In this document: positions 43,246 through 61,063 of the stretch, one piece after another
How the letters are laid out: the number at the start of each line of letters is the position of its first letter
Numbering within the stretch: the first letter of the stretch is position 1
Assembly: GCF_013113735.1 (NCBI RefSeq)
Contig: NZ_CP053346.1
Span: forward strand, 2,308,001 to 2,372,000
Source: Sphingomonas sp. AP4-R1
Lineage (GTDB): Bacteria > Pseudomonadota > Alphaproteobacteria > Sphingomonadales > Sphingomonadaceae
Length of the DNA stretch: 64,000 bases
Direction of reading: 5' to 3'
Notes under the pieces: model-generated
The model's input: only the letters and a program-made list of their open reading frames with translations
Database searches by the model: none
What the model was told of the DNA's origin: nothing
Made by a program: the position numbers and the translations under genes

Positions 43246-43270
43246 CACTCTCATAGAAGGAGAAGCAGAC

Positions 43271-44296
43271 ATGGCGAAAACCATGAAGGCGGCCGTCGTC
43301 CGCGAGTTCGGCAAGCCGCTCGTGATCGAGGAGGCGCCGGTCCCGGAGGTCGGCCCCGGCCAGATCCTAGTCAAGATCGCGGCGACCGGCGTCTGCCACA
43401 CCGACCTGCACGCGGCCGAGGGCGATTGGCCGGTGAAGCCGAACCCGCCGTTCATTCCGGGCCACGAAGGCGTCGGCCATGTCGCCGCGGTCGGGTCCGG
43501 GGTCACCCAGGTCAAGGAAGGCGACCGGGTCGGCGTGCCCTGGCTCTACACCGCCTGCGGTCATTGCGTGCACTGCCTGGGCGGCTGGGAGACCCTCTGC
43601 GACCTCCAGCAGAACACCGGCTATTCGGTGAATGGCAGCTTCGCCGACTATGTCCTCGCCGATCCCAACTATGTCGGCCATCTGCCCGACAATGTCGGCT
43701 TCATCGACATCGCGCCGATCCTCTGCGCGGGCGTCACGGTCTATAAGGGGCTGAAGGCCACCGCGACGAAGCCGGGCGACTGGGTGGTGGTCTCCGGGAT
43801 CGGCGGGCTCGGGCACATGGCGGTGCAATATGCCCGCGCCATGGGCCTCAACGTCGCCGCGGTCGACATCGACGATCGCAAACTCGATCTTGCGACACGC
43901 CTTGGCGCGGCGCTGACGATCAATGCGCGCAAGGAGGATCCGTCGGCCGCGATCAAGAAGGCCATCGATGGGGCGCAGGGCGTGCTTGTGACGGCGGTCT
44001 CGCCCAAGGCGTTCCAGCAGGCGCTCGGCATGGTGCGGCGCGGCGGTACTGTCGCGCTCAACGGTCTGCCGCCCGGCGACTTCCCGCTGTCGATCTTCGA
44101 CACCGTCCTCAACGGCATCACCGTGCGCGGCTCGATCGTCGGCACGCGGCTCGACCTGGTCGAGGCGCTTGCCTTCGCCGGCGAAGGCAAGGTCCACGCG
44201 ACGGTGCACACCGAGAAGCTCGAAGCCATCAACGATGTCTTCGCGCGCATGCACCATGGCGACATCGAGGGACGGATCGTCCTCGATCTGGCCTGA
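43271..44296 (+). CDS. adhP: Zinc-dependent alcohol dehydrogenase, AdhP-type
   Basis: 341 residues. Catalytic zinc ligands are visible in [15 protein letters not shown] and PGHEGVGH. The structural zinc is bound by the Cys quartet in [15 protein letters not shown]. The Rossmann motif is [13 protein letters not shown]. It interconverts primary alcohols and aldehydes with NAD. Paired with the upstream aldehyde dehydrogenase, it would take ethanol or a similar alcohol to the acid. The symbol is by family resemblance. Confidence 0.93.
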
Positions 44297-44302
44297 CCAT
44301 CC

Positions 44303-46021
44303 ATGGCGAAAGCACCGGTCATGCCTCCGTTTCACAGCCTGCCGGTCGCGCGGCGCCGCTTCGTCCAGGGTCTGGCGATCGGCGGAACCGTTGCCGGCTT
44401 CGCTCCCGCGCTATTCGCCAAATCGTTTTCCGTGCCGGCCGCCGAGCTGCGCGGAACCGAGTTCGACCTCGAGATCGCCGAGCTGCCGGTCAACTACACC
44501 GGCAAGCGCCGCGTCGCGACGGCGGTGAACGGTGCCGTGCCCGCGCCGGTCCTGCGCCTGCGCGAGGGCGACACCGTCACGCTGCGGGTTCGCAACAACC
44601 TCAAGGAGATGTCGAGCATCCACTGGCACGGGATCATTTTGCCGGCCGAAATGGACGGCGTGCCCGGCATCAGCTTCGCCGGCATCGCGCCCGGCGAGAC
44701 CTTCACCTATCGCTTCGAGGTGCGCCAGGTCGGCACCTACTGGTATCACGCCCACACGCTCGCCGAGCAGACCGGGCTCTACGGCGCGATCATCGTCGAG
44801 CCCAAGGCGCCGACAGGGCCGGTTCCCGACCGCGACTACACCATCATGCTGAGCGACTGGTCGGATGAGCCGCCGCTCCAGATCTTCATGAACCTCAAGA
44901 AGTCGAGCAGTTATTATAATTTCGCGCAGCCGACCGCCGGCGACTTTCTCAACGATGTCGGCGCGATGGGGCTCGGCAAGGCCCTCAAGCGGCGGCGGAT
45001 GTGGAACACGTCGCGGATGAATCCGACCGACTACAGCGATATTTCCGCGGCGACCTACACCTATCTCATGAATGGCACGACGCCGGCGGGCAACTGGACC
45101 GCGATCGCCGCGCCGGGCGAGCATGTTCGTCTGCGCTTCGTGGGCGCCGGGACGGCGACCTTCTTCGACGTGCGGATTCCCGGCGTCGCGCTCACCATCG
45201 TCTCGACCGACGGCCAGCCGGTGGTGCCGGTGACGGTCGACGAATTCCGGATCGGGCCGGGTGAGACCTATGACGTCGAATTGACCATGCCCGAAGGCGG
45301 TGCGCGCACGATCTTCGCCCAATCAATGGATCGAACCGGTTTTGCCCGCGGCACGATCGCGCCCCTGCCTGGCATGTCGGCGCCGGTGCCGGCCCTCGAC
45401 GCGCGGCCCTGGCTCGAGCCGGTCGACATGATGGGTGCGATGACGACCATGGGCAGCATGGGCGGCGAACATGCCGGGCACGGCATGACCGAGATGCCGC
45501 CCAAGTCGCGCCATGCCCGCACCGAATATGGCGCTAACACTGACATGCGCGTCGACTATCCCCGCACCAATCTCGACGATCCCGGCGCCGGCCTGCGCGG
45601 CCGCTCGTGGCGCGTCCTGACCATGGCGAACCTGCGCACGCCGGACGGCGACCCCGACCCGCGCGAACCCGAACGCGACATAGAGTTGCATCTGACCGGC
45701 AATATGGAGAGGTTCATCTGGTCTCTCGATGGGATCAAGCTCAACGATTCCCGGCCGCTGCACTTCAGGCCGAACGAGCGGCTGCGCATCGCCTTCGTCA
45801 ACGACACGATGATGTCTCATCCGATGCATCTTCACGGGATGTGGAGTGACGTCGAAGGGCCTGACGGTGCCTTCCAGGTCCGCAAACATACCGTGGTCGT
45901 ACAGCCCGCCCAGCGGGTCAGTTTCCGTGTCACGGCCGATGCGATGGGCCGGTGGGTGTTTCACTGCCATCTGCTCTATCACATGGCGGCCGGTATGTTC
46001 CGGGAGGTGGTGGTCGCATGA
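44303..46021 (+). CDS. copA: Copper-resistance multicopper oxidase CopA (set 1)
   Basis: 572 residues with a twin-arginine leader (ARRRFVQGLAIGGTVAGF). Three cupredoxin domains carry the copper motifs HWHG, YWYHAHT, HPMHLHG and HCHLLYHMAAGM, so type 1 and trinuclear sites are complete. A Met/His insert (MMGAMTTMGSMGGEHAGHGM) lies near residues 375-395. It oxidises Cu(I) in the periplasm. Its stop overlaps copB by four bases. It is shorter than the second CopA at 52769, mainly in the Met-rich region. Confidence 0.95.
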   Translation: MAKAPVMPPFHSLPVARRRFVQGLAIGGTVAGFAPALFAKSFSVPAAELRGTEFDLEIAELPVNYTGKRRVATAVNGAVPAPVLRLREGDTVTLRVRNNLKEMSSIHWHGIILPAEMDGVPGISFAGIAPGETFTYRFEVRQVGTYWYHAHTLAEQTGLYGAIIVEPKAPTGPVPDRDYTIMLSDWSDEPPLQIFMNLKKSSSYYNFAQPTAGDFLNDVGAMGLGKALKRRRMWNTSRMNPTDYSDISAATYTYLMNGTTPAGNWTAIAAPGEHVRLRFVGAGTATFFDVRIPGVALTIVSTDGQPVVPVTVDEFRIGPGETYDVELTMPEGGARTIFAQSMDRTGFARGTIAPLPGMSAPVPALDARPWLEPVDMMGAMTTMGSMGGEHAGHGMTEMPPKSRHARTEYGANTDMRVDYPRTNLDDPGAGLRGRSWRVLTMANLRTPDGDPDPREPERDIELHLTGNMERFIWSLDGIKLNDSRPLHFRPNERLRIAFVNDTMMSHPMHLHGMWSDVEGPDGAFQVRKHTVVVQPAQRVSFRVTADAMGRWVFHCHLLYHMAAGMFREVVVA

Positions 46022-47007
46022 TCCGGCTCGCTTCCCCGCGCACCGCTACGCTCGCCCTCGCCATGCTCGCCTCGACCGAGATGGCGGCACCGGCCCTTGC
46101 CCAGGAGCCATCGCCCCAGCAGGCCTCGCCGCCTCCCCAAGCCTCACAGAACACCCCGCCAGAACAACACGTCCATCCCGCGCAACAAGCCGAGGATCAT
46201 GGAGCGATGAACATGCCCGGCATGGATATGCCCGGCATGGACATGTCGGGCGGGAGCGCGAAGATGGACATGGGCCGCATGCAGGGCGGCAAGGCTCCCC
46301 CGGACGCGCGCGACTCCAACAACTATTCGGACGGCTACCGCAATTCGACGCTGCCGGGCTACGAAATGGCCGACAAGCTCTCGATCCCCAGGATCCTGGT
46401 CGACGAACTGGAATTCGTCACCGGCAATGAGGGGCAGGGCTTCGGCTGGACGGTGCAGGCCACGAGCGGCCAGGACAATGACAAGCTCTGGTTGCGCAGC
46501 CAGGGGCTGAAGAACTCGCGCGACCGGCTCGATCCCGAGAGCAGCGTCGAGGCGCTCTGGTGGCACAGCAAAAGCCCGTTCTGGGGAACATCGCTGGGCG
46601 TTCGGCAGGATCTGGGCAAGGGTGCGACGACCTGGCTCGCAGCGGGCATCAAGGGACTGGCGCCCTATTGGTTCGACGTCCAGTTGACCGGCTATGTGGG
46701 TGACGATGGCCGCGTTGCGGCGCGCGCGAAGGCGTCTTACGATGTCCTCTTCACCAATTGGCTGATCCTGACGCCGCAGGTCGAGACCAACATTTACAGC
46801 AAGCGCTCGACCGACCGCGAGCTTGGCGGTGGCTTCAGCAACGTCGAGCTGAGCGGACGCCTGCGCTACGAATTCTCGCGCAAGTTCGCGCCCTATGTCG
46901 GCTTCGTCTGGGAGCGCGCGCTGGGCGGCACCGCCGATTTTCGGCGTGCCGATCGCGAGCTGATCACCGAGCATCGCGTGGTGGTCGGCCTGCGCTTGTG
47001 GTGGTGA
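46018..47007 (+). CDS. copB: Outer-membrane copper-resistance protein CopB (set 1)
   Basis: 329 residues. Signal peptide, then a Gln/Pro-rich and Met-rich segment (NMPGMDMPGMDMSGGSAKMD). A beta-barrel domain follows with WTVQATSGQDNDKLWLRSQG, FFRKFAPY-like FSRKFAPYVGFVWERALG and the terminal VVVGLRLWW, ending in aromatic residues as usual for outer-membrane barrels. It is coupled to CopA by ATGA and probably releases or binds copper at the outer membrane. Confidence 0.93.
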   Translation: MIRLASPRTATLALAMLASTEMAAPALAQEPSPQQASPPPQASQNTPPEQHVHPAQQAEDHGAMNMPGMDMPGMDMSGGSAKMDMGRMQGGKAPPDARDSNNYSDGYRNSTLPGYEMADKLSIPRILVDELEFVTGNEGQGFGWTVQATSGQDNDKLWLRSQGLKNSRDRLDPESSVEALWWHSKSPFWGTSLGVRQDLGKGATTWLAAGIKGLAPYWFDVQLTGYVGDDGRVAARAKASYDVLFTNWLILTPQVETNIYSKRSTDRELGGGFSNVELSGRLRYEFSRKFAPYVGFVWERALGGTADFRRADRELITEHRVVVGLRLWW

Positions 47008-47096
47008 ACCGCGATGTGGCATCGGCACGATCACGGAATGAACCCAAGCCTCGCAAGGAAGGGGCCAACCAGCGGGAGAGGCCGTCCCGCTCGTCC

Positions 47097-47745
47097 ATGA
47101 TGCTGCTTTTCGCGGTCGCCGCTGCGTCCGCGGGCCAGACCGCCATCCTTGCCTTCCTGCCATCGCTTGTTGACGACGGACAGGTTCCTCTTTCGCTGCG
47201 CGCCCATGACTCCCATGTCGCGAGCCTGAGCGTGGCGCATCCCCTCGCGGCGTTGCTCTTCGCACCGCTCTGGGGCTGGCTCGCGGCCAGACGGACTATC
47301 GGATCATTTTGCGCGCCGCACTCATCGTTCTCGCGCTGGCGCCGGTCGGGGTCGTAGCGCTACCGACGCGTCGATGATCGCGATCGCCGGCCTCATCGTC
47401 GTGGCCGGCTGGAGTTCGGCGAGCCTTCGTCTCGTCACCAGCTTCTGGATCAGCGGCCCCGCGCTCCCGTCTGGCTGGAAGCTCGGGCTGCAGCATGCGG
47501 CGGCCAGCATCGGTCAGGCTCTTGCCCCGATGGCGATCGCCGTTGCCGCGCCGGGCGAACAATCGGTCATATTCGTCGGCATCGGCTGGGCTTCGATCCT
47601 TCTGCTTGCGGCGCTGCCGCTCCTCTGCCGACCAGATCGGGCACGACAAAAGCCGCTGCCTGATGAGGGGGAGCGGCCGCCGGTGCGTATTGAACGATGT
47701 GGGCAAGCGCCTGCCGCTATTCGTCACTGTTTCAGGAACCGGACC
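47097..47745 (+). pseudogene. Major facilitator superfamily transporter, frameshifted and deleted
   Basis: Pieces of an MFS transporter in three frames: MMLLFAVAAASAGQTAILAF with AHPLAALLFAPLWGWLAAR, then YRIILRAALIVLALAPVGVV, then MIAIAGLIVVAGWSSASLRL with GLQHAAASIGQALAPMAIAV. Only about 200 residues of an expected 400 remain. The last frame has no stop before the DUF411 gene and runs into it. In related clusters such transporters may move copper or siderophores, but this copy is dead. Confidence 0.75.
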
Positions 47746-48183
47746 ATGAAGACCCACCTGCCTGCCGTCTTGCTGTTGCTCGCCGTGCCGGCCGTCGCCT
47801 TTGCAGCGAGTGACGTGGTCGTGCACCGGGATCCGGGATGCGGATGCTGTGAGAAGTGGGCACAGGCCGTCCAGGCCAGGCTGGCCCGGAAAGTGGTCAT
47901 CACCGACGATCCGTCGCGGGCTGGGTTCCAACGTCGAGCCGGCGTTCCGCCCAGTCTTTCCTCCTGTCACACTGCGGTCGTCGACGGCTATGTATTCGAA
48001 CGGCATGTGCCGGTCGCCGACATGAAGCGACTGCTGGCAACCCATCCGGCCGGCATCAAAGGCCTGGCGGTCGCAGGCATGCCGCTTGGTTCGGAAGGCA
48101 TGGAGGTGCCCGGCGCGACGCCCCATCCTTATGAGGTGATCGCGTTCGGCAGCGCCGGCCAGCGCGTTTTTGCGCGCCACTGA
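47746..48183 (+). CDS. DUF411 metal-binding protein
   Basis: 145 residues with a signal peptide (AVLLLLAVPAVAFA). The conserved DUF411 start is VVHRDPGCGCCEKWAQAV with its Cys cluster, followed by GVPPSLSSCHTAVVDGYVFE and GHVPVADMK-like HVPVADMKRLLA. DUF411 proteins accompany copper-resistance operons and are thought to be periplasmic copper chaperones. The frame is continuous with the broken MFS gene upstream, but the ATG at 47746 starts the signal peptide. Confidence 0.88.
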   Translation: MKTHLPAVLLLLAVPAVAFAASDVVVHRDPGCGCCEKWAQAVQARLARKVVITDDPSRAGFQRRAGVPPSLSSCHTAVVDGYVFERHVPVADMKRLLATHPAGIKGLAVAGMPLGSEGMEVPGATPHPYEVIAFGSAGQRVFARH

Positions 48184-48221: not shown

Positions 48222-48710
48222 CTAGCCCTCGAAGCCGATCTGCGCACGGTGTCGCCGGATCACATCGAGCAAGGCCCGGCCGATGAGCGGCTTGGCGAGG
48301 ACGTGATCGAAGCCGGCCTCCCGCGCGCGCTGCGCGAGCGCGAGATCATGAAAGCCGGAGATCATGATCGCGCTTCCCGTCCAGCCCTTTTCGCGGAGCT
48401 GCCCCAGAATGGCGAACCCGTCAATGTCGGGCATGCGATAATCGACGATCACGCAATTGGCAGCGAGCGCCTCCGGGTCTGAGACGAGCGCCCGGCCCGT
48501 CGTATAGCCGCTCACGTGGTAACCACGCGAGCGCAGCATGAGGTGAAGGCCGCGACGTATCGCGGGATCGTCATCGGAAATCAGAACCCTGTAGAGCCGG
48601 TTGCGCGATCGGGAACTGGGGAAAGACATTTCGCGTGACGCACTGCCGAGAAAAAATGGACTGCTCCTTAGCGTCTCACTCCAGCGGCAACCCGTCGCTA
48701 CGTAGTTCAC
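48222..48710 (-). CDS. Single-domain response regulator
   Basis: 162 residues from a GTG preceded by AGGAG; a Met at 48629 would give 135 residues. Receiver domain only: SDDD acidic pocket (46-48), phosphorylated Asp90 in CVIVDYRMPDIDGF and Lys in VLAKPL. No output domain is present. It follows fixJ within a few bases and may act as a phosphate sink or relay for FixL. Confidence 0.87.
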   Translation of the reverse strand: MNYVATGCRWSETLRSSPFFLGSASREMSFPSSRSRNRLYRVLISDDDPAIRRGLHLMLRSRGYHVSGYTTGRALVSDPEALAANCVIVDYRMPDIDGFAILGQLREKGWTGSAIMISGFHDLALAQRAREAGFDHVLAKPLIGRALLDVIRRHRAQIGFEG

Positions 48711-48713
48711 GCA

Positions 48714-49337
48714 TCATTTGCTCCTGCGGCCCAACCCGGCGGCGAAGGCGATCCGCAGGGCCTCGGAGAGATTGCGGACTTCGAGCTTCGTCATGACGTT
48801 TGCGCGATGGACCTCCACGGTTCGCGACGAGCAGCCGAGATCATAGGCGATCGTCTTGTTCGGGAGGCCGTTGGCCATTCCTTCCAACACCTCCTGCTCG
48901 CGCGGCGTCAGTGCGGAGATCCTCACCAGGGCTTCGGATTCTTCCAGCGCGCGGATATCGACGTCATTGATGCGCGCGAAGGCGCGATTGATGGCGTCGA
49001 GAAGGGCGGCCTTCTCGAACGGCTTCTCTAGGAAATCGACCGCGCCGCCCTTCATGGCCTGGACTGCGACCGACACGTCGCCATGCCCGGTGAGGACGAT
49101 GACGGGCATGTTGATGCCGCGCTCCGCCATCGCCGCCTGGACGTCGAGGCCGTCCATTTCGGGCATCCGCACGTCGAGCAGCACGCAGCCGGTTTCGGCC
49201 GTCCTCGCCGTTTTCAGGAACTCGATCCCGGATGAAAAGGTAGTGACCGCAAAGCCGGCTGTCTTGAGCGTGAAGCTCGCCGCCTTCCGGATCGCCTCTT
49301 CATCGTCGACCAGATAGATGATGCGCCTATCCCCCAT
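48714..49337 (-). CDS. fixJ: FixJ-type response regulator
   Basis: 207 residues. Receiver with Asp11-Asp12, phosphorylated Asp55 (CVLLDVRMPEMDG) and DFLEKPF. LuxR-type HTH at the C-terminus: LTPREQEVLEGMANGLPNKTIA and SSRTVEVHRANVMTKL. It overlaps the fixL gene by 11 bases. FixJ activates micro-oxic genes such as fixK or cytochrome oxidase genes; none is in the window. Confidence 0.92.
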   Translation of the reverse strand: MGDRRIIYLVDDEEAIRKAASFTLKTAGFAVTTFSSGIEFLKTARTAETGCVLLDVRMPEMDGLDVQAAMAERGINMPVIVLTGHGDVSVAVQAMKGGAVDFLEKPFEKAALLDAINRAFARINDVDIRALEESEALVRISALTPREQEVLEGMANGLPNKTIAYDLGCSSRTVEVHRANVMTKLEVRNLSEALRIAFAAGLGRRSK

Positions 49338-50862
49338 GATTATCCTCCGCCCGCGCATGGATCAGCGTGAAATGAAATCGCGTGCCGCCCCCGGCAGGAT
49401 CTTCAACCCAGATCCGGCCACCATGGGCCTCGACGATCGTCCGGCAGATCGAGAGCCCGAGGCCCATGCCGCCTGCCTTGGTGGAGACGAAGGCCTCGAA
49501 CAGCCTGGCGCGAACCTCTTCCAAAATGCCGGGGCCGCTATCCTCGATGGTCACCTCGATGAAGCCGTCGGGGCACAGATGCGTGGCCACCCTGAGATCG
49601 CGGATCGGCGATGACGCCATCGCCTCGACGGCGTTCCGGATGAGGTTGACGAGCACCTGCTGGATCTGGACGCGGTCGACGAGAACGGGCGTCGCGGCCG
49701 GATCATAGGTGAAGAAGCTGCGGACACCCCGTTCCCGCGCGCCGACCAACGCGAGCTGGCCCGCTTCCTCGATAAGGCCGGGCACCGCCACCAGGTTCTT
49801 GTCGACCTCGCCCCGGGCCACGAAATCGCGAAGCCGTCGCACGATATGACCTGCGCGCAGCGTTTCCTGCGCCGCATCGTTCATGACGGCGCGAAGATCG
49901 GCAAATCGCTCGTCCTCCAATTCCTCGAACAAATCCCGGACGGTCTCGAGATAGAGCGCGACGGCCGCGAGAGGCTGGTTCAGCTCATGGGCCAGCGTCG
50001 AGGCCATGGTGCCCATCGCGCTCAGGCGCGAGACATGGACGAGTTCGGCCTGCAGCTCCTTGAGCTTGAGTTCGTCCTCCTCCTTGGCGGTCAGGTCGCG
50101 GATGAAACCGGTGAACACCCGGTGGCCGTCCTCGCCGGCTTCGCCGACCGACAGCTCCATGGGGAAAGTGGTGCCGTCCTTGCGCTCTCCGACGACAACG
50201 CGACCGATGCCGATGATTCGGCGCTCGCCCGTGTGCAGGTAGTGGCTGATATATTCGTCGTGCCGGTCGCGATCGGGCTGCGGCATCAGGCACGAGACGT
50301 TGCGCCCGATCAGCTCCGCTTCCCGATAGCCGAACAGGCGCTCGGCGGCCGCGCTGAACGAGGTGATGCTCCCCACCTCGTCGATGATGATCATCGCGTC
50401 CGGCACGGTCGCAAGGATGGACTGCAGGTGCTGTTCGCGCGTCTCGATCGAAGCGCGGACCGCGGCGTCATCGGTGATGTCGCGCGTGATGCAGGCGAAG
50501 CCGCAGTGCATGTCGCCATCGAGCAGCGCCGTGATGGTCAGGCGCGCCAGATATTCGGAGCCGTTCTCGCAAACGCGCCAGGCTTCCCGCTCGAATGTCC
50601 CGTCGTGCAAGGCTGCCGACAGGTCGGCCTGTGGTCGACCTGCCGTGATTTCGTCCGGCGGGTAGAAGAGATCGTGGGCGTTTCCGAGCACGCGGTCGAG
50701 CGGCCAGCATTCGATCCGCTCGCCCTCCTCATTGTAGCTCAGCACCCGGCCCGCAGGATCGAGCAACAAGAGGACATAGCCACCGACCTGTCGCAGGAGG
50801 AGCGGAGCGAGCCGCTTGACCTCAGCGGCGACGTCCGGGGCGCTTGAATCCTTTTTGTCCAT
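49327..50862 (-). CDS. fixL: FixL-type haem oxygen-sensing histidine kinase
   Basis: 511 residues, soluble. An N-terminal PAS-like domain (about 20-130) precedes the FixL haem-PAS (145-260). The haem ligand His201 is in RHDEYISHYLH, and the oxygen-sensing Arg221 is in RIIGIGRVV; these match the proximal His and distal Arg of rhizobial FixL with the same 20-residue spacing. The kinase has His292 in TLAHELNQPLAAVALYLETV, NLIRNAVEAM and GMGLGLSICRTIVEAHGG. Oxygen binding would switch off kinase activity. Confidence 0.94.
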   Translation of the reverse strand: MDKKDSSAPDVAAEVKRLAPLLLRQVGGYVLLLLDPAGRVLSYNEEGERIECWPLDRVLGNAHDLFYPPDEITAGRPQADLSAALHDGTFEREAWRVCENGSEYLARLTITALLDGDMHCGFACITRDITDDAAVRASIETREQHLQSILATVPDAMIIIDEVGSITSFSAAAERLFGYREAELIGRNVSCLMPQPDRDRHDEYISHYLHTGERRIIGIGRVVVGERKDGTTFPMELSVGEAGEDGHRVFTGFIRDLTAKEEDELKLKELQAELVHVSRLSAMGTMASTLAHELNQPLAAVALYLETVRDLFEELEDERFADLRAVMNDAAQETLRAGHIVRRLRDFVARGEVDKNLVAVPGLIEEAGQLALVGARERGVRSFFTYDPAATPVLVDRVQIQQVLVNLIRNAVEAMASSPIRDLRVATHLCPDGFIEVTIEDSGPGILEEVRARLFEAFVSTKAGGMGLGLSICRTIVEAHGGRIWVEDPAGGGTRFHFTLIHARAEDNHGG

Positions 50863-51575: not shown

Positions 51576-52772
51576 CTAGAACCAGAAGCGGACGCCAGCG
51601 ACGAAGCTCGTGGCATGGACGTCCTCGCCGGCAAGGCGGGAAAGGCGAGCCGTGTCGCCGGTCTTGCGCAGGTAGGAGACGCCGGCATAGGGCGCGAACT
51701 GGCGGCTGAACTCGTAGCGCAGCCGGGCACCGAGCTCGACGTCGACCAAGCCCGATCCGATGTCGTTCCTCGGCACATCCTGCGCGGCGAGGTTCAGCTC
51801 GACGCGTGGCTGGAGGATCAACCGCTGGGTGATGCGCTGGTCGTAATAGCCCTCGACGCGCCCGAGGAGATCGCCCTTGTCGGAGAGGAAGAGCGCGCCT
51901 TCCACCTCGAACATACCAGGCGCCAGGCCCTCGAAGGCGACCGTCGCATAGGTGCGGTCAGGACCGCGCCCGAAGTCCTGCCGGACGCCAGCCTGCAGAT
52001 TGAAATAGGGATCGATCGCATGGCTGAAGAGTGCCTGCACCTCGGCCGTGTCGATGCCGCGGCTGAACTCGCCTTCGCCTTCGCTCTTGAGCCAGAGCCG
52101 GTTGATGTCGCCGCCGTAAAAGGCTTCGCCGTCCCAGCGATAGCCGTCGCGGCCGCTATGCGCCTGATACTCGAAGATGTTGAGGATTGCCTGGGCGAAC
52201 CGGCCATCGCCATTCTCCTTCATCATCGCCTTGCGAGCGCGCGCCATCTCGGCGCCCGGAAAATCGCGATCGGCATAATGATCGTGCGGAACGGGCGGGG
52301 GCGGGGCGTTGCCGGCGGGTAGGGCCGTCCCGGTCATCTCCATGCCCGGCATCGCTCCCTGGCTGTGCTGCGCGTGGTCCGTGCCCGGCGTATCGGGCAT
52401 CGCGGCGTCCTGATGCTGCGAATGGTCCATCCCCGGCATATCCGGCATCGTATCGGACGACGGTTGCGATGGGTTCGCGTCGGGCATGCCCGGCATGGCC
52501 CCCGCCTGATGCCGGGAATGATCCATACTCGGCATGTCGTCCGCCGCGGGCGCCTGGACCGGCAGGCGCGATCGCGGCTGCGCCGCGGACGGCTTGGCCG
52601 GCGGTTTCTGCTGTGCGCGTTGCGGACGCGGTTTCACCGGCTTCCTCGCAGGCTTGCTCTGGGCCGGCTGCGCCATGCCAGGCATGTCGTGCATCGAGTG
52701 ATCCTGGGCGAACGCGGGCTCGGCAGCTATGAGGGCGATGCCGCTCACCAGCGGCGCGAGGGAGCGGATCAT
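51576..52772 (-). CDS. copB: Outer-membrane copper-resistance protein CopB (set 2)
   Basis: 398 residues. Signal peptide, a Lys/Pro/Gln-rich region, then repeated Met/His blocks (MPGMDHSQHQDAAMPDTPG). The barrel domain includes AYQAHSGRDGYRW-like EYQAHSGRDGYRWDGEA, NRLWLKSEGEGEF and FSRQFAPYAGVSYLRKTGD, ending in AGVRFWF. It overlaps copA by four bases. It is longer than the set 1 CopB, largely because of the Met/His region. Confidence 0.94.
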   Translation of the reverse strand: MIRSLAPLVSGIALIAAEPAFAQDHSMHDMPGMAQPAQSKPARKPVKPRPQRAQQKPPAKPSAAQPRSRLPVQAPAADDMPSMDHSRHQAGAMPGMPDANPSQPSSDTMPDMPGMDHSQHQDAAMPDTPGTDHAQHSQGAMPGMEMTGTALPAGNAPPPPVPHDHYADRDFPGAEMARARKAMMKENGDGRFAQAILNIFEYQAHSGRDGYRWDGEAFYGGDINRLWLKSEGEGEFSRGIDTAEVQALFSHAIDPYFNLQAGVRQDFGRGPDRTYATVAFEGLAPGMFEVEGALFLSDKGDLLGRVEGYYDQRITQRLILQPRVELNLAAQDVPRNDIGSGLVDVELGARLRYEFSRQFAPYAGVSYLRKTGDTARLSRLAGEDVHATSFVAGVRFWF

Positions 52773-54721
52773 GCCGCGTCTTCCTTCGAACGAACGCTCA
52801 CGACCCGCATCATGCCGGCATGCATGTGGTAGAGGAGATGGCAGTGGAACGCCCAGTCGCCGATGGCATCGGCGGTGAAGTCCCAGCTCACCTTGCCGCC
52901 GGGCTGGACGATGACCGTGTGTTTGCGCGGAGAATGATCACCGTGCCCGGTCACCAGCTCGAAGAAATGGCCATGGATGTGGATCGGATGGCCCATCATC
53001 GTGTCGTTGATGAGGTTGATCCGTATCCGCTCGCCTTCGGTGAACGGAATCGGCTCGTGATGGTCCGACATCTTCTCGCCGTCGAACGACCACATGAAGC
53101 GCTCCATGTTGCCGGTCAGGTGAATATCAATGCTGCGGCTCGGCGCCCGGACGTCGGGATTGCGCTCCAGCGCCATCAGATCCTTGTAGACGAGCACCTT
53201 GTGCCCGGCATCCTCCAGACCCTGGCCGGGCTCCCCCGTGCGGTCGACCGGCATTGGCGAGATCGTCTGGACACCGGGATCGCGCTTGACCTGGGGCGCG
53301 TTCGAGAAGTCGCGCATCTTCATCGAGCCCATCGCCATGTCGCTTCCGCCATGGTCCATGCCCGCCATTTGGCCGCCGGCTCCCGCCGCCATCGCCGAAT
53401 GGTCCATCCCGGTCATGGAGCTGTGGTCCATTCCGGCCATGGCCGAGTGATCCATTCCTGCCATCACACCGGGGTCCATGCCGGGCATCGTCGCTGCCGT
53501 TGCCGCGCTGCCGAGACGCGCTGAGGCATTTTTCTCGGCGCTGGGATCGATAGCGCGAGCGGGACCGCCCGACATATCCATTCCCTCCATGCCGGGCATC
53601 GAGGACATGTCCATGCCCATGTCCTTCATGGTGGCGAGCGGGCGCTTGCGTAAGCGTGGCACCTCGGCCGCCATGCCGGCGCGCGGCGCGAGCGTGGCGC
53701 GGGCCATGCCTGAACGGTCGACCGCCTCGCCGACGATCGTGAAGGCCTTGTCCTCGCTCGGGTCGACGATGACGTCGTAGGTCTCAGCGACGCCGATCTG
53801 GAATTCGTCGACCGTCACCGGCATTACATTCTGACCGTCGGCCTGGACGATGGAGAGCGGCAGGCCCGGAATGCGGACGTTGAAGGTGGTCATCGCCGAG
53901 GCGTTGATGAAGCGCAGCCGCACGCGCTGTCCGGGCGTGAACAGCGCCGTCCAGTTGTCGAACGGACCATGGCCATTGACGAGATAGGTGTAGGCGGAGC
54001 CGGTGACGTCGGAGATGTCGGCGGGATCCATCCGCATCTTGCCCCAGTCGAGCCGGTCCTTCGCCTTCTGGTCGCGGCCTCCGATCAGCCCGGCCAGGGT
54101 CTGGCGCTGGAAATTGAAGTGACCCGGATTGACCTTGAGACGGCGGAAGATCGCTTCCGGCGATAGCGGGCTGTGGTCGGCCAGCACGATGACATGCTCG
54201 CGGTCATAGGCGATCGGATCGGCGCCGGCCGGATCGATGATGATCGGACCGTAATGGCCTTCCTGCTCCTGCAGACCTGAGTGGCTGTGATACCAATAGG
54301 TGCCGCTCTGGATGACCGGAAACTCGTAGAGATAGCTGCCGCCCGGCGAGATGCCCGGAAACGAGACGCCGGGCACGCCGTCGTGCTTCGCCGGGACCAG
54401 CACGCCATGCCAGTGGATCGAGCTGCCCTCCTCGAGCTGGTTGATGACGTTGAGGCGAACCCTTTGCCCCTCGCGCAGCCGGATCAGCGGCGCGGGGACG
54501 GTGCCGTTGACGCCGATCGCCTTGAAACGCCGGCCGTCGATCGTCATCGACTGCCGCGCAATGGTCAACGCGATGTCCTCGCCCGAAACGGTAGGAAGCG
54601 CGGGCTGCAGCCCTTGCGAAACCGTCTGCGCCCAGGCCGGCAGCCACGCGGACAGCGCTGCGCCGCCGCCTACGATCGCGGCGGCGCGCAGGAACTGGCG
54701 GCGGTCGAGCACTGAGTTCAT
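52769..54721 (-). CDS. copA: Copper-resistance multicopper oxidase CopA (set 2)
   Basis: 650 residues with a twin-arginine leader (DRRQFLRAAAIVGGGAALSA). Copper motifs HWHGVLVPAK, YWYHSHSGLQEQ, HPIHIHGHFFEL and HCHLLYHMHAGMM are intact. A long insert near residues 375-470 carries tandem MAGMDHSA-type repeats and accounts for the extra length over set 1. This is the PcoA/CopA long form. It is transcribed from a promoter overlapping the end of the ECF sigma gene and continues into copB. Confidence 0.96.
   Translation of the reverse strand: MNSVLDRRQFLRAAAIVGGGAALSAWLPAWAQTVSQGLQPALPTVSGEDIALTIARQSMTIDGRRFKAIGVNGTVPAPLIRLREGQRVRLNVINQLEEGSSIHWHGVLVPAKHDGVPGVSFPGISPGGSYLYEFPVIQSGTYWYHSHSGLQEQEGHYGPIIIDPAGADPIAYDREHVIVLADHSPLSPEAIFRRLKVNPGHFNFQRQTLAGLIGGRDQKAKDRLDWGKMRMDPADISDVTGSAYTYLVNGHGPFDNWTALFTPGQRVRLRFINASAMTTFNVRIPGLPLSIVQADGQNVMPVTVDEFQIGVAETYDVIVDPSEDKAFTIVGEAVDRSGMARATLAPRAGMAAEVPRLRKRPLATMKDMGMDMSSMPGMEGMDMSGGPARAIDPSAEKNASARLGSAATAATMPGMDPGVMAGMDHSAMAGMDHSSMTGMDHSAMAAGAGGQMAGMDHGGSDMAMGSMKMRDFSNAPQVKRDPGVQTISPMPVDRTGEPGQGLEDAGHKVLVYKDLMALERNPDVRAPSRSIDIHLTGNMERFMWSFDGEKMSDHHEPIPFTEGERIRINLINDTMMGHPIHIHGHFFELVTGHGDHSPRKHTVIVQPGGKVSWDFTADAIGDWAFHCHLLYHMHAGMMRVVSVRSKEDAA
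53350..53483 (-). repeat. Tandem Met/His repeats inside CopA
   Basis: Encodes about four consecutive eight-residue units of the form GMDHS(A/S)M(A/T), plus flanking GMD units. These are presumed Cu(I) ligands. Repeats of this kind vary in number by slippage. Confidence 0.8.
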
Positions 54722-54760: not shown

Positions 54761-54788
54761 GATTACGCAGCGCGGGCGCTTACCCCTC
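54761..54788 (-). promoter_or_regulatory. ECF-type promoter of copA (set 2)
   Basis: Minus strand: GAGGGG at 54788-54783, 13 bases, TGCGTAATC at 54769-54761. The same boxes with the same spacing occur at 56111-56084 and 56136-56163. The first box overlaps the TGA stop codon of the sigma gene. Confidence 0.75.
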
Positions 54789-55353
54789 AGGATTTTTGCA
54801 AGATTTCCGAAAGTCGTGTGCGGGCGCGATAAAGTCTTGTTTCCACCGCCTTCTGGCTGATGCCGAGGATCCGGGCCGTCTCCGCTTCGGAGCTGCCCTC
54901 GATCGTCCGCAGGATCAGCACCTCCTTGAGCGCGGCGGGAAGCGTGGCGATCGCCGTCATCGTGCGCTCCAGCTCGGCTTCGCCGGAGACGGTCCTGTCC
55001 ACGTCTGGCGTGTCGTCCGCCACGTCACGGGCCTCGCCGAGCGGCAGGGCGAAGGCGAGCAGCCTGCGAACGGCGCGCCGGCGGCGCCAGTCGGTGCATT
55101 TGTTGAGCGCGATACGCGATAGCCACGCCCGGAAAGATCGTTTGTTGTCATAACGGCCGAGCGCGCCAAACGCCGAGACGAAGCAGGCCTGTGTAAGATC
55201 GAGCGCTTCTTCGCTGTTGCCGATATGGCTGCGCACGAGCCGATAGACCCAGCCCTGGTGGCGCCGCACCAGCTCGCCGAACGCCGCCTGCCGGCCGCCA
55301 CGCGCCAGAGCCGCAAGCTCGCCGTCCGAGCAGTCGGCGAGGTTAAGCGTCAT
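54787..55353 (-). CDS. CnrH-like ECF sigma factor
   Basis: 188 residues. Region 2: GWVYRLVRSHIGNSEEALDL with TQACFVSAFGALGRYD and FRAWLSRIALNKCTDWRRRR. Region 4: LPAALKEVLILRTIEGSSEA, then ILGISQKAVETRLYRARTRL. Its start overlaps the sensor gene by ATGA, and the order anti-sigma, sensor, sigma is that of cnrYXH/nccYXH. It should direct transcription from the three GAGGGG-N13-TGCGTA promoters here. The frame is open far upstream but only through the neighbouring gene. Confidence 0.9.
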   Translation of the reverse strand: MTLNLADCSDGELAALARGGRQAAFGELVRRHQGWVYRLVRSHIGNSEEALDLTQACFVSAFGALGRYDNKRSFRAWLSRIALNKCTDWRRRRAVRRLLAFALPLGEARDVADDTPDVDRTVSGEAELERTMTAIATLPAALKEVLILRTIEGSSEAETARILGISQKAVETRLYRARTRLSEILQKS

Positions 55354-55793
55354 TTTTTCTGGGCCGTGAGCGCCTTTACCACGGCATCGTCGAACTTGCC
55401 CGTCTGGTCCGGCCTGAGCACCGCGCGCATCGCGAAGATGTGCTCCAGTGTTTCCTTCTGCAGCGCGCCCATCGCCTGGTGCGAACGGTCTACGGCCGCC
55501 GCCACCTGCGGTCCATAGCCGTGCTCGGACCGGATGGCCTGGGCAAGCCACGCATTGTCGGCACGCAGTTCTGTCTCGAGCGCTTGGCGGCGGATCGCGT
55601 AGCGCGCCTCGATGGCTTCTAGACGCGCGTGCTGCCCGGCATCCAGCTTGAGATCGCGGTGGAGCAGCTCGTGGAGCTCGTTTTCGACCGGCCGATCGGG
55701 CACCAAATAGAGCCTCCCGATCACGACGCCGGCGATCGCCGCGGCGAAGGTCAGCACGACGAGAAGGACCAGCCGGCGAGGATCGCGCATCAT
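55350..55793 (-). CDS. CnrX-like periplasmic metal sensor
   Basis: 147 residues: an N-terminal anchor helix (8-30), then a helical hairpin domain. The residues corresponding to the CnrX Ni/Co site are all present at one lower number: His41, His45, Glu62, His118 and Met122 (CnrX 42, 46, 63, 119, 123). Flanking sequence such as QKETLEHIFAMRAVLRPDQT is highly similar. It senses metal in the periplasm and releases the sigma factor through the anti-sigma. Translationally coupled on both sides. Confidence 0.88.
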   Translation of the reverse strand: MMRDPRRLVLLVVLTFAAAIAGVVIGRLYLVPDRPVENELHELLHRDLKLDAGQHARLEAIEARYAIRRQALETELRADNAWLAQAIRSEHGYGPQVAAAVDRSHQAMGALQKETLEHIFAMRAVLRPDQTGKFDDAVVKALTAQKK

Positions 55794-56062
55794 CGCGGTC
55801 CAAGCAACGTAGATGGCGCCAGCGCCAACCGCGCATCGAATGGCGTGATGGTGCTTGCGCCAGCGGATGCCGCCGGCAGCGCGGAACCCCCGATTCCGAT
55901 GAACAGCGCCACGACCGCCGCAATGCCGAACGTAGTGTTGCCGACGCTCGGACTTGCCTGGATGCGCGCGATCTGCGCCATCACGCGATCGTCGAGACCG
56001 TGTAGCCGCGCATCGAGCGGTGCGTCGCGCAAGCGCGCGAGAAGTGTGTCGAGATCCGTCAT
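55790..56062 (-). CDS. CnrY-like anti-sigma factor
   Basis: 90 residues. A cytosolic N-terminus of about 40 residues (LLARLRDAPLDARLHGLDDR) would bind the sigma factor, one transmembrane helix (about 46-64) follows, and a short periplasmic tail ends the protein. Size and position match CnrY, the anti-sigma of the cobalt-nickel system, though sequence is poorly conserved in this family. It is the first gene of the Y-X-H operon and overlaps the sensor gene by ATGA. Confidence 0.8.
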   Translation of the reverse strand: MTDLDTLLARLRDAPLDARLHGLDDRVMAQIARIQASPSVGNTTFGIAAVVALFIGIGGSALPAASAGASTITPFDARLALAPSTLLGPR

Positions 56063-56083
56063 CTGAATTCTCCTTCAATCCTA

Positions 56084-56111
56084 GAATACGCAATAACCCA
56101 TCATTCCCCTC
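56084..56111 (-). promoter_or_regulatory. ECF-type promoter of the Y-X-H operon
   Basis: Minus strand: GAGGGG at 56111-56106, 13 bases, TGCGTATTC at 56092-56084. It lies 22 bases before the anti-sigma start and would make the sigma factor autoregulated. Confidence 0.75.
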
Positions 56112-56135
56112 ACGCGAGACGCTCGCGAATATTTC

Positions 56136-56163
56136 GAGGGGTCGGCCGCAGCGCTGCGTATTC
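56136..56163 (+). promoter_or_regulatory. ECF-type promoter of copCD
   Basis: GAGGGG at 56136-56141, 13 bases, TGCGTATTC at 56155-56163, pointing to the gene at 56196. Together with the site at 56084-56111 it forms a divergent pair. Confidence 0.75.
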
Positions 56164-56195: not shown

Positions 56196-56579
56196 ATGCC
56201 TGCACCGCACCGCTTTGCGCTGGACGCGCTCGCCGCCAGCGTGCTCGTCGCCTCGCCCGCCTTCGCCCATCCCAAGCTCCTGTCCTCGACGCCGGTGGCC
56301 AATGCGAGCGTCGCGGCGCCGTCGAAGATCACGCTCACCTTCAGCGAGGGCCTGATGCCCAAGCTGTCCGGCGCGAATATCGTCATGACCGGCATGCCGG
56401 GCATGCCCAACCATCGCATGGCGGTCACCGGGTTCGAGACCGCGACCGATGCCGACGGCAAGACGCTCGTTCTGACCCTCGCCAAGCCGCTTTCGGCCGG
56501 AAGCTATCAGGTCGCCTGGCATGTCGTCTCGACCGATACCCACCGCGTCCAGGGCAATCTCGCCTTCGCCGTGAAGTGA
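56196..56579 (+). CDS. copC: Periplasmic copper-binding protein CopC
   Basis: 127 residues. After a signal peptide (ending SPAFA) the mature chain starts with His (HPKLLSSTPVANASV), the N-terminal Cu(II) ligand of CopC proteins; the second His is in STDTHRVQGN. The Met-rich GMPGMPNHRM segment could hold Cu(I). Immunoglobulin-like CopC/YobA fold. Followed four bases later by copD. Confidence 0.93.
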   Translation: MPAPHRFALDALAASVLVASPAFAHPKLLSSTPVANASVAAPSKITLTFSEGLMPKLSGANIVMTGMPGMPNHRMAVTGFETATDADGKTLVLTLAKPLSAGSYQVAWHVVSTDTHRVQGNLAFAVK

Positions 56580-56583
56580 CCTC

Positions 56584-57513
56584 GTGAGCGACGTGGCTCT
56601 CATCTGGGTCCGCTGGGCGCTCTACGTCGATCTCGGGCTGCTGTTCGGCCTGCCGCTGTTCGCGCTATACGCGCTGGGAGGTGGGCGGGCAGGGCAGCGA
56701 CATCTGCCGCTTGCCGTTCCGCTCATCGGCCTCGCCGTGCTGGGCCTCATCCTGTCCGCGGTGGGGTTCGTGATCCAGGGGGCGGCCATGGCCGGTGTGC
56801 CGCTCACCCGGGCGGACATGTCGATCCTCAGCGATCTGTTGGGCACGACGGCGCTGGGCCTCGCGCTCAAGATACGGGTGCTGGCGCATCTTGTCGTCCT
56901 GATCGGCTCCGCGCTGCTGGGCCGATGGCCGCGTGCAGCGACCGTGGTGGCGACGCTTGCAGGCGCGGTCGCGCTGGCGACGCTTGCCTGGGGCGGCCAC
57001 GGCGCAGCGGGCGAAGGCAACGCCGGCTGGCTGCAGCTTGCCGCCGACCTCATCCATCTCTTCGCCGCAGGTGCGTGGGTAGGGGCGATCGCTGCCTTCC
57101 TCATCCTGGCGCTTCCGCCGATCGCTTTCGGCGATATGGAGCGCCCGACGCTGGCCGAGCGCGCGTTGCGCGGCTTCGCAGGCGTCGGCACGCTAATCGT
57201 CGCTTTGCTCATTCTGACCGGCGCCATCAACGGCTTCTTCCTGGTCGGTCCAAATCGCGTCGCGGCCCTCGGGCAATCGACCTACGGCCTGCTCCTGATC
57301 GCCAAACTGCTCCTTTTTGCCGCGATGCTCGCCCTGGCCGGGCTCAACCGCTTCCGCCTGACCCCCGCGCTCGGTCTTGCGATCGAGCAGAATGATGCGC
57401 CGCGCGCCATGGCGCTGCTGCGCAGGAGCCTCTTCGTCGAGGGAAGCCTGGCGATCGTCATCTTCGCGCTCGTCGCATGGCTGGGGACACTGTCTCCACC
57501 CGTGTCGGCCTAG
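56584..57513 (+). CDS. copD: Inner-membrane copper protein CopD
   Basis: 309 residues from a GTG, with about eight transmembrane helices. CopD-family pieces are DLIHLFAAGAWVGAIAAFLI and LILTGAINGFFLVG. CopD works with CopC in copper uptake across the inner membrane. The gene belongs to the copC transcript. Confidence 0.92.
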   Translation: MSDVALIWVRWALYVDLGLLFGLPLFALYALGGGRAGQRHLPLAVPLIGLAVLGLILSAVGFVIQGAAMAGVPLTRADMSILSDLLGTTALGLALKIRVLAHLVVLIGSALLGRWPRAATVVATLAGAVALATLAWGGHGAAGEGNAGWLQLAADLIHLFAAGAWVGAIAAFLILALPPIAFGDMERPTLAERALRGFAGVGTLIVALLILTGAINGFFLVGPNRVAALGQSTYGLLLIAKLLLFAAMLALAGLNRFRLTPALGLAIEQNDAPRAMALLRRSLFVEGSLAIVIFALVAWLGTLSPPVSA

Positions 57514-58254: not shown

Positions 58255-58285
58255 TTGACCCTGACACGGTGTCAGACCCTACATC
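58255..58285 (+). promoter_or_regulatory. CueR/MerR-type promoter of the copper ATPase operon
   Basis: TTGACC at 58255-58260, exactly 19 bases, TACATC at 58280-58285. The spacer holds the perfect dyad CTGACAC-G-GTGTCAG (58261-58275). This is the MerR-family architecture in which the activator untwists the long spacer. The regulator is probably the CueR-like gene at 60665. Confidence 0.85.
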
Positions 58286-58310
58286 GTCAGGCGTCGAAAG
58301 GAGCAAGGCG

Positions 58311-60668
58311 ATGAATGAGACACACTCAGCGGCGCATGGCGGTGTTTGCTGCGGCGGCCATGGGCCTGCGAAACCGGCAACGGGCGTCAAGGATCCGGTC
58401 TGCGGCATGACCGTCGATCCGGCGAAAACCGAGCATCATGCAGAGCATGACGGCAAGACCTGGCATTTCTGCAGCGCGGGTTGCCGCGCCAAGTTCATCG
58501 CCGACCCCGCACGCTACCTCAGCCCACCCGCGCCGCCGGTAGCAGCGCCCGAAGGGACGATCTGGACCTGCCCGATGCACCCGGAGATCCGGCAGGACCA
58601 TCCCGGCGCCTGCCCGATCTGCGGCATGGCGCTCGAGCCGGCGACGGTGACGGCCGACAGCGGCCCCAGCCATGAGCTGGTCGACATGACCAGGCGCTTC
58701 TGGATCGGTCTCGTTCTCGCCATTCCGGTCCTGATCCTCGAAATGGGCGGGCATATCTTACCAACGCTTCATCACATCGTGCCCATGTCGGTCTCGATCT
58801 GGGTCCAGTTCGCTCTTGCGACCCCTGTGGTGCTCTGGGCCGGCTGGCCCTTCTTCGAGCGGGGCTGGGCCTCACTCAAGACGCGTAACCTCAACATGTT
58901 CACGCTCATCGCGATGGGCACCGGTGTCGCCTGGATCTACAGCGTCGTCGCCACGCTTGCGCCACAGATATTCCCGCCCGCGTTCCGCAACGCCGACGGC
59001 GCGGTCGCGGTCTATTTCGAGGCGGCTGCGGTCATCACCGTGCTGGTGCTGCTGGGCCAGGTGCTCGAACTGCGAGCGCGTGAGCGCACGTCGGGCGCGA
59101 TCAAGGCGCTGCTCAATCTCGCGCCCAAGACGGCGCGGCGCATCGGGGCCGACGGAAATGAAGAGGAGGTGAGCCTCGATCTCATCGCCGTTGGCGATCG
59201 GCTGCGGGTGCGTCCCGGCGAGAAGGTGCCGGTCGACGGCGTCGTCGAGGATGGCCGCTCCTCGCTCGACGAATCGATGGTGACCGGCGAATCCATGCCC
59301 GTCACCAAGTCCAGGCAAGACAAGGTCATCGGCGGCACACTCAACCAGACCGGCGCGCTCGTAATCGTCGCCGACAAGGTCGGGCGCGACACCATGCTCG
59401 CGCGCATCGTCCAGATGGTCGCCGAGGCGCAACGTTCGCGCGCGCCGATCCAGCGCATGGCCGACCAAGTCGCGGGATGGTTCGTGCCTGCGGTGATCCT
59501 GGTGGCGGCGCTCGCCTTCATCCCGTGGAGCATTTGGGGGCCCGAGCCGCGCTTTGCCTATGGGCTCGTCGCCGCGGTCGCCGTGCTGATCATCGCCTGT
59601 CCCTGCGCGCTGGGTCTCGCGACGCCGATGTCGATCATGGTGGGGGTCGGCCGGGGCGCAGGGCTCGGCGTCCTCATCAAGAATGCCGAGGCGCTCGAGC
59701 ATATGGAGAAGGTCGATACACTTGTGGTCGACAAGACCGGGACGCTGACCGAGGGACGGCCCGCTGTCACGCAGATCGTGCCGGCTCCCGGCTTCGACGA
59801 TGCCGAGTTGCTGCGTCTGGCTGCGTCGGTGGAACGCGCGTCGGAGCACCCGCTGGCGCTGGCGATCGTCGAAGCGGCGAAAGGCCGTGGCATCGCTACG
59901 AGCGATGTGAGCGACTTCGACTCCCCGACCGGACGCGGCGCGCTCGGCACCGTCGATGGCCGCAGGATCGTGCTCGGCAATGCCCGCTTCCTCTCGGAGG
60001 AGGGGATCGCGACCGAGGCGCTGGCCGAGCAGGCTGACGCGCTTCGCCGCGATGGCGCCACCGCGATCTTCATCGGCATCGACGGCAAGGTCGGCGGCGC
60101 CTTCGCGATCGCCGACCCGGTCAAGCAGACGACACCGGAGGCCCTGGCTGCGCTCAAGGCCGAGGGTATCCGCGTGGTCATGCTGACCGGTGACAACCGC
60201 ACGACCGCCGAGGCGGTCGCGAGGCGTCTCGGGATAGACGATGTCGAGGCCGAGGTGCTGCCCGACCAGAAGAGCGCCGTGGTCGCGCGCCTCAAGAGCG
60301 AGGGCCGCGTGGTCGCGATGGCCGGCGACGGTGTCAACGACGCGCCGGCACTGGCTGCCGCCGATGTCGGCATCGCCATGGGCTCGGGGACGGACGTTGC
60401 CATCGAGAGCGCCGGCGTGACGCTGCTCAAGGGCGATCTCATGGGCATCGTGCGGGCACGGCGGCTCAGCCAGGCGACCATGTCCAACATCCGCCAGAAT
60501 CTGGTTTTCGCCTTCATCTACAATGTTGCCGGCGTCCCCGTCGCGGCGGGCGTCCTCTATCCGCTGTTCGGCATCCTCCTCTCGCCGATCATTGCCGCGC
60601 TGGCGATGGCATTGTCCTCGGTGAGCGTCGTCACCAATGCGCTCAGACTCAACCGGAGGGCGCTGTGA
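58311..60668 (+). CDS. copA: Copper-exporting P1B-type ATPase
   Basis: 785 residues from the ATG at 58311, which has AAAGGAG before it. N-terminus: a Cys/His segment, a YHS domain ([10 protein letters not shown] with WHFCSAGC) and a heavy-metal-binding domain ([20 protein letters not shown]). Then eight helices with the CPC motif in [13 protein letters not shown], the TGES loop, DKTGTLTEG with the phosphorylated Asp, an HP motif (SEHPLALA) and [12 protein letters not shown]. It exports Cu(I)/Ag(I) from the cytosol. Its stop overlaps the regulator start (GTGA). Confidence 0.96.
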
Positions 60669-61063
60669 ATATCGGCGAGGCGTCGAAGCAAACCGGCGTC
60701 TCGGAGCGGATGATCCGCCACTATGAGAAGATCGGCCTCATCCCGCCGCCACCGCGCCGGGGTGCGGGCTATCGCGACTATGGTGAGCGCGACCTTCATC
60801 GTCTGCGGTTCATCGCCAATGCCCGCGATCTCGGCTTTCCGATCGACGAAATCCGGACCCTGCTTGGCCTGTGGGCCGACACGGGCCGCAGCAGCGCTGA
60901 TGTGAAGCGGGTAGCGTTGGCGCGGGCGTCGGAACTTCAGCGCAAGGCGCAAGCCCTGACGACGTTGCGCGAGACCCTCGTTGATCTTGCCGAGCGGTGT
61001 CACGGCGATGAGCGGCCGGATTGTCCGATCATCGCCGAGCTGACTCTTGATAGAAAATGTTAA
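60665..61063 (+). CDS. cueR: CueR-like Cu(I)/Ag(I)-responsive MerR regulator
   Basis: 132 residues from a GTG overlapping the ATPase stop. [23 protein letters not shown]. The metal site matches CueR numbering exactly, with Cys112 and Cys120 ([10 protein letters not shown]) and Ser77, the signature of monovalent-metal sensors. It probably activates the 58255 promoter. A C-terminal Cys ends the chain. Confidence 0.93.

Follow-up and report, generated by a model that had tools for sequence, protein, structure and literature searches.

The closest described counterpart of the locus analysed here is the CnrYXH circuit of Cupriavidus metallidurans plasmid pMOL28, whose sigma factor CnrH we take to belong to group ECF20. 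The sequences AAGGGG...CGTATAAG and GAGGGG...CGTATAGA stand before cnrY and cnrC, respectively, each with 17 bases between RAGGG and CGTA. A scan of 49 kb of pMOL28 gave one further match, which lies downstream within the cnr region, outside both promoters (26860 in L112), and both sites are present in a related Cupriavidus plasmid, again with N17. By primer extension, transcription of cnrY begins 24 bases upstream of the gene and that of cnrC 25 bases upstream, and cnrYp is tied to CnrH in the part of that report consulted (PMC9045368). Placed on the sequence, both published starts fall 9 bases after the A of CGTA (PMC9045368). The same base upstream of cnrY is listed as TSS_53286 and labelled RpoD-type in the portion of a second source that we consulted (PMC11647585). 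This label counts against the simple reading of cnrYp; a sigma-70 promoter could overlap it.

The window, by which we mean the whole stretch of 64 000 nucleotides of Sphingomonas sp. AP4-R1 DNA that was analysed, contains the following features:

47665..47692, plus strand: P4, putative promoter before the DUF411 gene, GAGGGG-N13-TGCGTATTG, predicted start ~47698; from scans of the window and of this genome
47746..48183, plus strand: DUF411 protein (Pfam-checked), with a signal-peptide-like beginning by reading
51576..52772, minus strand: copB (PF05275)
52769..54721, minus strand: copA, multicopper oxidase (TIGR01480), ATG at 54721
54761..54788, minus strand: P2, putative copA promoter, GAGGGG-N13-TGCGTAATC, predicted start ~54755
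54787..55353, minus strand: CnrH-like ECF sigma factor, 188 aa (Sigma-70 regions 2 and 4)
55350..55793, minus strand: CnrX-like periplasmic metal sensor, 147 aa (PF13801, 2.7e-22)
55790..56062, minus strand: putative anti-sigma gene, 90 aa, ATG at 56062; by reading, a short N-terminal part, one hydrophobic stretch and a short tail
56084..56111, minus strand: P1, putative promoter of the anti-sigma/sensor/sigma operon, GAGGGG-N13-TGCGTATTC, predicted start ~56078
56136..56163, plus strand: P3, putative copC promoter, GAGGGG-N13-TGCGTATTC, divergent from P1, predicted start ~56169
56196..56579, plus strand: copC (NF033814), ATG at 56196
56584..57513, plus strand: copD (NF033808)

The predicted starts of P1 to P4 carry over the cnr offset, and at 9 bases past CGTA they fall within the 5–10 bases after the TGCGTA box where the first-pass annotation had expected 5′ ends.

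From comparison of the sequences we put at about 90% the probability that the boxes are −35 and −10 elements read by RNA polymerase with the CnrH-type ECF sigma factor whose gene they flank, in a CnrYXH-like circuit driving the cop genes. The reading as ECF promoters is supported by the ECF geometry of the boxes, their fixed spacing, their recurrence at CnrX/CnrH-like operons outside the family and their match to the CnrH promoters, apart from one base of the spacer. Since the three copper promoters share a conserved sequence that closely matches that of a nickel-sensing circuit, copper defence in this organism is probably run by a circuit of the CnrH kind.

The operon on the minus strand runs in the order 90-aa protein, sensor, sigma factor, and then copA and copB; copC and copD run in the opposite direction. 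With starts chosen from homology, there are 4-base overlaps at both joints of the first three genes. The sigma factor had been called CnrH-like from its sequence, and this is borne out by a comparison with solved structures, in which CnrH 4cxf scores best (E 2.3e-31) and the runner-up reaches E 2e-18. Its region 4 matches to residue 181 of 188, and it thus carries no cysteine-rich C-terminal extension of the CorE type. The best solved relatives of the sensor are CnrX structures (E ~1e-19), and it aligns with CnrX at the positions H, H, E, H and M, which we take to be the CnrX metal ligands. The 90-aa protein resembles CnrY in its place, size and single hydrophobic stretch, but not in sequence. 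It has no match in Pfam and none above cut-off in NCBIfam, and the family model NF033790, which finds CnrY (1.9e-40), misses it. Nor did profile comparison link it to CnrY, hhalign returning a probability of 0.3%. We regard the protein as a putative anti-sigma factor.

The circuit may operate as follows. At rest, the sigma factor would be tethered to the membrane by the small membrane-bound anti-sigma, and the CnrX-like sensor in the periplasm would keep it there. Arrival of a metal ion at the sensor, most likely copper, would free the sigma factor. We infer that the freed protein binds the boxes, driving its own operon from P1, which would give positive feedback together with more inhibitor. 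Through P2 and P3 it would activate copAB and copCD, respectively, and P4 would probably place the DUF411 gene under its control as well.

The first-pass annotation had described three sites of the form GAGGGG-N13-TGCGTAWTC with identical boxes and spacing. There are exactly three matches in the 64 kb, with the neighbours and orientations that it gave: copA (−), the anti-sigma gene (−) and copC (+). Its view that three such matches would seldom arise by chance agrees with their appearance in 0 of 100 dinucleotide shuffles of the window. When the terminal WTC is dropped a fourth exact site emerges at 47665–47689 (+), which it had missed. This is P4, which adjoins a second copB gene and lies 56 bases upstream of the DUF411 start. 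Allowing up to two mismatches still gives four window sites in all, with 5.4 expected in shuffles. The −35 box of P2 shares bases with the stop codon of the sigma gene, whose TGA forms the beginning of TGAGGG; in relatives, 64 of the 80 sites that follow the sigma gene show the same overlap.

The genome scan that had been proposed as a check was run with the 25-base pattern GAGGGG-N13-TGCGTA. It gave five matches in the 5.27 Mb genome, each of which belongs to a copper cluster or precedes a sensor/sigma operon: P1–P3 and P4 in the copper cluster of the window, and one before a second anti-sigma-like/sensor/sigma operon. As the backwards pattern occurs twice, the count is only modestly above chance, and the placement of the sites rather than their number is the strong point. 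Looser patterns behave similarly. RAGGG-N14-YGCGTA has 10 genome matches, seven in copper or sensor/sigma loci (reversed control 8), while GAGGG-N16-CGTAT has eight, five in such loci (control 3). The remaining three of each (L107, L110 and L111; L141, L144 and L145) were treated as chance on reading, no metal gene being seen at any of these six. L107 is 46 bases before an unnamed frame, L110 is 56 bases before a frame that reads as transporter-like, L111 lies inside a longer frame, L144 is 92 bases before a possible start, and for L141 and L145 there is no frame of at least 70 aa starting 8–120 bases downstream.

How well is this arrangement preserved in related bacteria? A scan with the sigma factor provided 80 loci, the best 80 of 142 confirmed relatives, nearly all titled as sphingomonads. 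Across these best 80 of 142 the gene order is conserved, including inhibitor, sensor and sigma factor, and copA and copC are each matched in 77 of the 80. Of the 80 loci, four have the strict boxes of the first-pass annotation at three places, 41 at two, six at one and 29 at none, and the reversed pattern never occurs. In the 29 loci the sites are present, differing in spelling. Alignment of the upstream regions reveals a core of GAGGG or AAGGG, 16 bases and CGTA; the boxes of the original consensus are narrower than this conserved RAGGG-N16-CGTA.

The core is found in 36 of 38 distinct 150-base upstream sequences for the anti-sigma gene (79 sequences including the window), in all 36 for copA (77 sequences) and in all 39 for copC (78 sequences). 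From the starting 81 sequences, two, four and three, respectively, were dropped because the gene match was missing or, for the anti-sigma gene and copA, did not begin at residue 1; the copC starts in relatives are extrapolated. Reversed controls gave 0 in each case, and the shuffles gave means of 0.14, 0.05 and 0.02 with largest values of 2, 1 and 1. The spacing is 16 in every core match although 17 was allowed, and it is fixed while the intervening bases vary. A G precedes CGTA in 76 of 76 distinct sphingomonad sites, and CGTA ends 17–48 bases before the start codons of copA, the anti-sigma gene and copC in the relatives. Of the two anti-sigma misses, L044 differs at a single base of the second box, and in L076 the divergent side is without copC or copD. 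L049 and L050 retain the site that follows the sigma gene, but copA was not matched in either. Two records titled Arthrobacter (L056) and Tolypothrix (L062) carry the sphingomonad locus, and are probably misnamed or contaminant contigs.

The count in relatives is partly circular, because the core was chosen after viewing their alignment, and a sample of sensors from across the phylum is a fairer test. A search of 398 phylum genomes gave 24 sensor matches in 17 genomes, of which 11 are from the family of the window, two of them from this genome. For 21 of the 24, the core, with a spacing of 16 or 17, lies no more than 500 bases ahead of the sensor gene, in the place expected for the promoter of the inhibitor (reversed 0; shuffle mean 0.09, largest 2). 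Outside the family it is present for 10 of 13 sensors, all three misses being in one genome (G634). Within the family, 16 of 298 genomes contain the 28-base GAGGGG-N13-TGCGTATTC (reversed 0) and 90 contain the sigma factor at E 1e-30. The sigma factor is found in 14 of the 16 genomes with the motif against 76 of the other 282 (Fisher p 1.7e-6, uncorrected for relatedness), and one of these 14, G290, has a sigma match of only 39%. At L086 in G206 the motif match has no convincing gene at promoter distance. The identical strict motif also occurs in three genera at L089, L090 and L092 (base 1501–1528); at L089 another ECF-like sigma gene, one for which no CnrX neighbour was matched, begins 32 bases downstream of it.

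The first-pass annotation had concluded that three promoters define the regulon of the sigma factor. Their interpretation as ECF promoters has held; the limit to three has not, given the further sites, nor has the attribution to one sigma factor, because the genome encodes a paralogue, 54% identical to that of the window, with the same motif. The regulon is thus larger than three promoters. The second locus (L113; G000:C1:2795.5–2800.2 kb) comprises anti-sigma-like, sensor and sigma genes, copA, copB and a divergent copC. Its GAGGGG-N13-TGCGTA site is at G000:C1:2796004, before the anti-sigma-like/sensor/sigma operon; the divergent CopC-domain gene has GAGGGC-N13-CGCGTA and the downstream copA GAGGGC-N13-TGCGTA. 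The second circuit has the same three-promoter layout with nearly the same boxes, and therefore the two regulons probably overlap. Could the promoters be true ECF promoters that both sigma factors read interchangeably, so that there is a single merged regulon? The shared GAGGGG-N13-TGCGTA site accompanying the two GAGGGC-type sites, and the similarity of the region 4.2 helices, where KAVExR is common to the window sigma, the paralogue and CnrH, would be consistent with this. Against it, the preferences of the two proteins may differ, since the paralogue's copA and copC sites have GAGGGC in place of GAGGGG and the proteins are only 54% identical. We place full interchangeability a little below an even chance.

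The promoters might be of the CnrH type but the natural inducer nickel or cobalt, or several metals, the cop genes then being induced by a metal that they do not handle. The sensor keeps the aligned CnrX ligand positions, so the case for copper rests on gene context. In Sphingobium sp. ba1 nickel induced copC and a cluster encoding ALDH, ADH, CopA, CopB, MFS and metal-binding proteins, thus including genes annotated copA, copB and copC, in the part of the report consulted (PMC5557971). The window has a counterpart at 41725–48183, with ALDH-, ADH-, second CopA-, second CopB-, MFS- and DUF411-like genes in the order of IL54_0078–0083 of ba1, as given in the portion of that source seen (PMC5557971); these genes were named by reading, except for the Pfam-checked CopB and DUF411. 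However, the copA and copB of ba1 belong to this ALDH-type cluster, and in the window's version of the cluster no site marks the start, the one site present being that before the last gene, DUF411. Moreover copA is matched in 77 of 80 related loci (best 80 of 142), and genes for DUF305 and DUF326-like proteins also follow such sites. We consider nickel, cobalt or several metals in place of copper unlikely as the natural inducer, and copper the most likely metal. Within the cluster, at 46758–48183, the MFS-like gene is split over two frames (to 47357 and from 47374). No stop codon separates the second frame from the DUF411 gene, and a separate start for the latter lies at 47746.

The repeated sequence could in principle be bound by a transcription factor as its operator, for example by a response regulator of the CopR type, instead of being a sigma-factor promoter. 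Genes resembling a response regulator and a histidine kinase are nearby (48222–50862, named by reading), and cop genes elsewhere can be under CopRS, according to the part consulted of PMC12428095. Yet the short distance to the start codons and the fixed spacing of two boxes speak against an operator, as do the match of the boxes to CnrH promoters with mapped starts and the fact that in other classes they accompany the sigma operon itself, and we find this explanation highly improbable. A chance origin of the three sites, in a genome that is GC-rich and where even the reversed pattern occurs twice, is scarcely credible given 0 of 100 shuffles and their conservation in related loci. The genes at 48222–50862, the kinase being of PAS type, adjoin the copper cluster and may provide a second layer of control. 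On the other side of copD, at 58269–61063, a gene reading as a metal P-type ATPase (DKTGT) is followed by one for a MerR-like regulator.

In a more distant Sphingomonas group (L051–L085) further core sites occur at fixed places, before genes for a Cys-rich protein and DUF305 proteins. Relative to the start of the anti-sigma gene, one set of extra cores is ~1.85 kb before it (19 matches by position), and two sets follow it at 5.2 kb and 5.9 kb (25 matches each). By reading the Cys-rich protein is of the copper-storage type, DUF326 falling below cut-off (six of the proteins at the extra sites were scanned). A strict site also lies ~125 bases before genes resembling TonB-dependent receptors in two genera (L098 and L100, base 1501–1528). 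In G042 this is beside copB at the sigma factor's own locus, and in G139 on a different contig from the sigma factor; a Plug domain was found for the G042 receptor, L100 being the only receptor locus scanned.

A broader proposal is that a large CnrH-type regulon with one rigid promoter code is the standing copper switch of the sphingomonads, with up to six units per locus, an anti-sigma factor of an undescribed family and a response to several metals. We advance this tentatively, at slightly less than even odds. If it were true, the six units would be the Cys-rich copper-storage-like protein, copCD, the circuit itself, copAB and two DUF305 proteins, and a TonB-dependent receptor would join the regulon in two sampled genomes. 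The copper genes would then respond to several metals, because the sensor retains the nickel/cobalt ligand positions of CnrX.

No paper among the matches listed in our literature search indicates that sphingomonad cop genes are under a CnrH-like circuit, and by title none of the papers containing both 'ECF sigma factor' and 'GAGGGG' is about CnrH. The consensus was not found in the literature searched, and it may have been printed earlier. Promoter logos are named for 29 ECF subgroups in the legend to Figure 2 of PMC3817407, the part of that source consulted. The analysis provides a checkable promoter rule, TGAGGG-N15-GCGTA with a start 9 bases on, for the copper genes of widespread soil and water bacteria. 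It would tie to copper an ECF branch known from nickel resistance, and offers one possible reason for the induction of copC by nickel in a Sphingobium. The conserved small protein is a candidate for a new anti-sigma family.

Several metal-responsive ECF systems share some of these features; each is described here from the parts of the reports consulted. The SigAb–AabA–AabB system of Acinetobacter likewise has an ECF sigma factor, a small membrane anti-sigma modelled as binding like CnrY, and a response to copper. Unlike the window, its sigma gene comes first and its promoter is GTCAAC/CGTT; its direct targets are given as three (sigAb, relA and sabS), with no cop genes among them (PMC12153292). 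SigF–NrsF of Caulobacter is also an alphaproteobacterial metal-responsive ECF system with a promoter common to its own operon and its targets, but with GTAACC-N16-CGAA, a six-helix membrane anti-sigma and a response to chromium and cadmium (PMC3511200). CorE of Myxococcus is an ECF sigma factor controlling a multicopper oxidase and other copper genes, as in the window, but is regulated by its own cysteine-rich C-terminal extension and not by an anti-sigma (PMC10141476).

The comparison with CnrYXH is closer. Both systems have the order inhibitor, sensor, sigma, with homologous sensors and sigma factors, and both have one promoter before the operon and another that directly follows the sigma gene and precedes the effector operon. 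The same GAGGG/AAGGG and CGTA boxes occur at cnrYp and cnrCp, with 17 bases between them compared with 16 in the window. The effectors are CopABCD in the window and the CnrCBAT efflux system in CnrYXH; the window has an additional divergent promoter for copCD, and its inhibitor has no detectable sequence similarity to CnrY. The circuit type is that of CnrH, and the promoter code very probably so, in a variant distinguished by its copper output, a third divergent promoter, a spacer one base shorter and an unrelated inhibitor.
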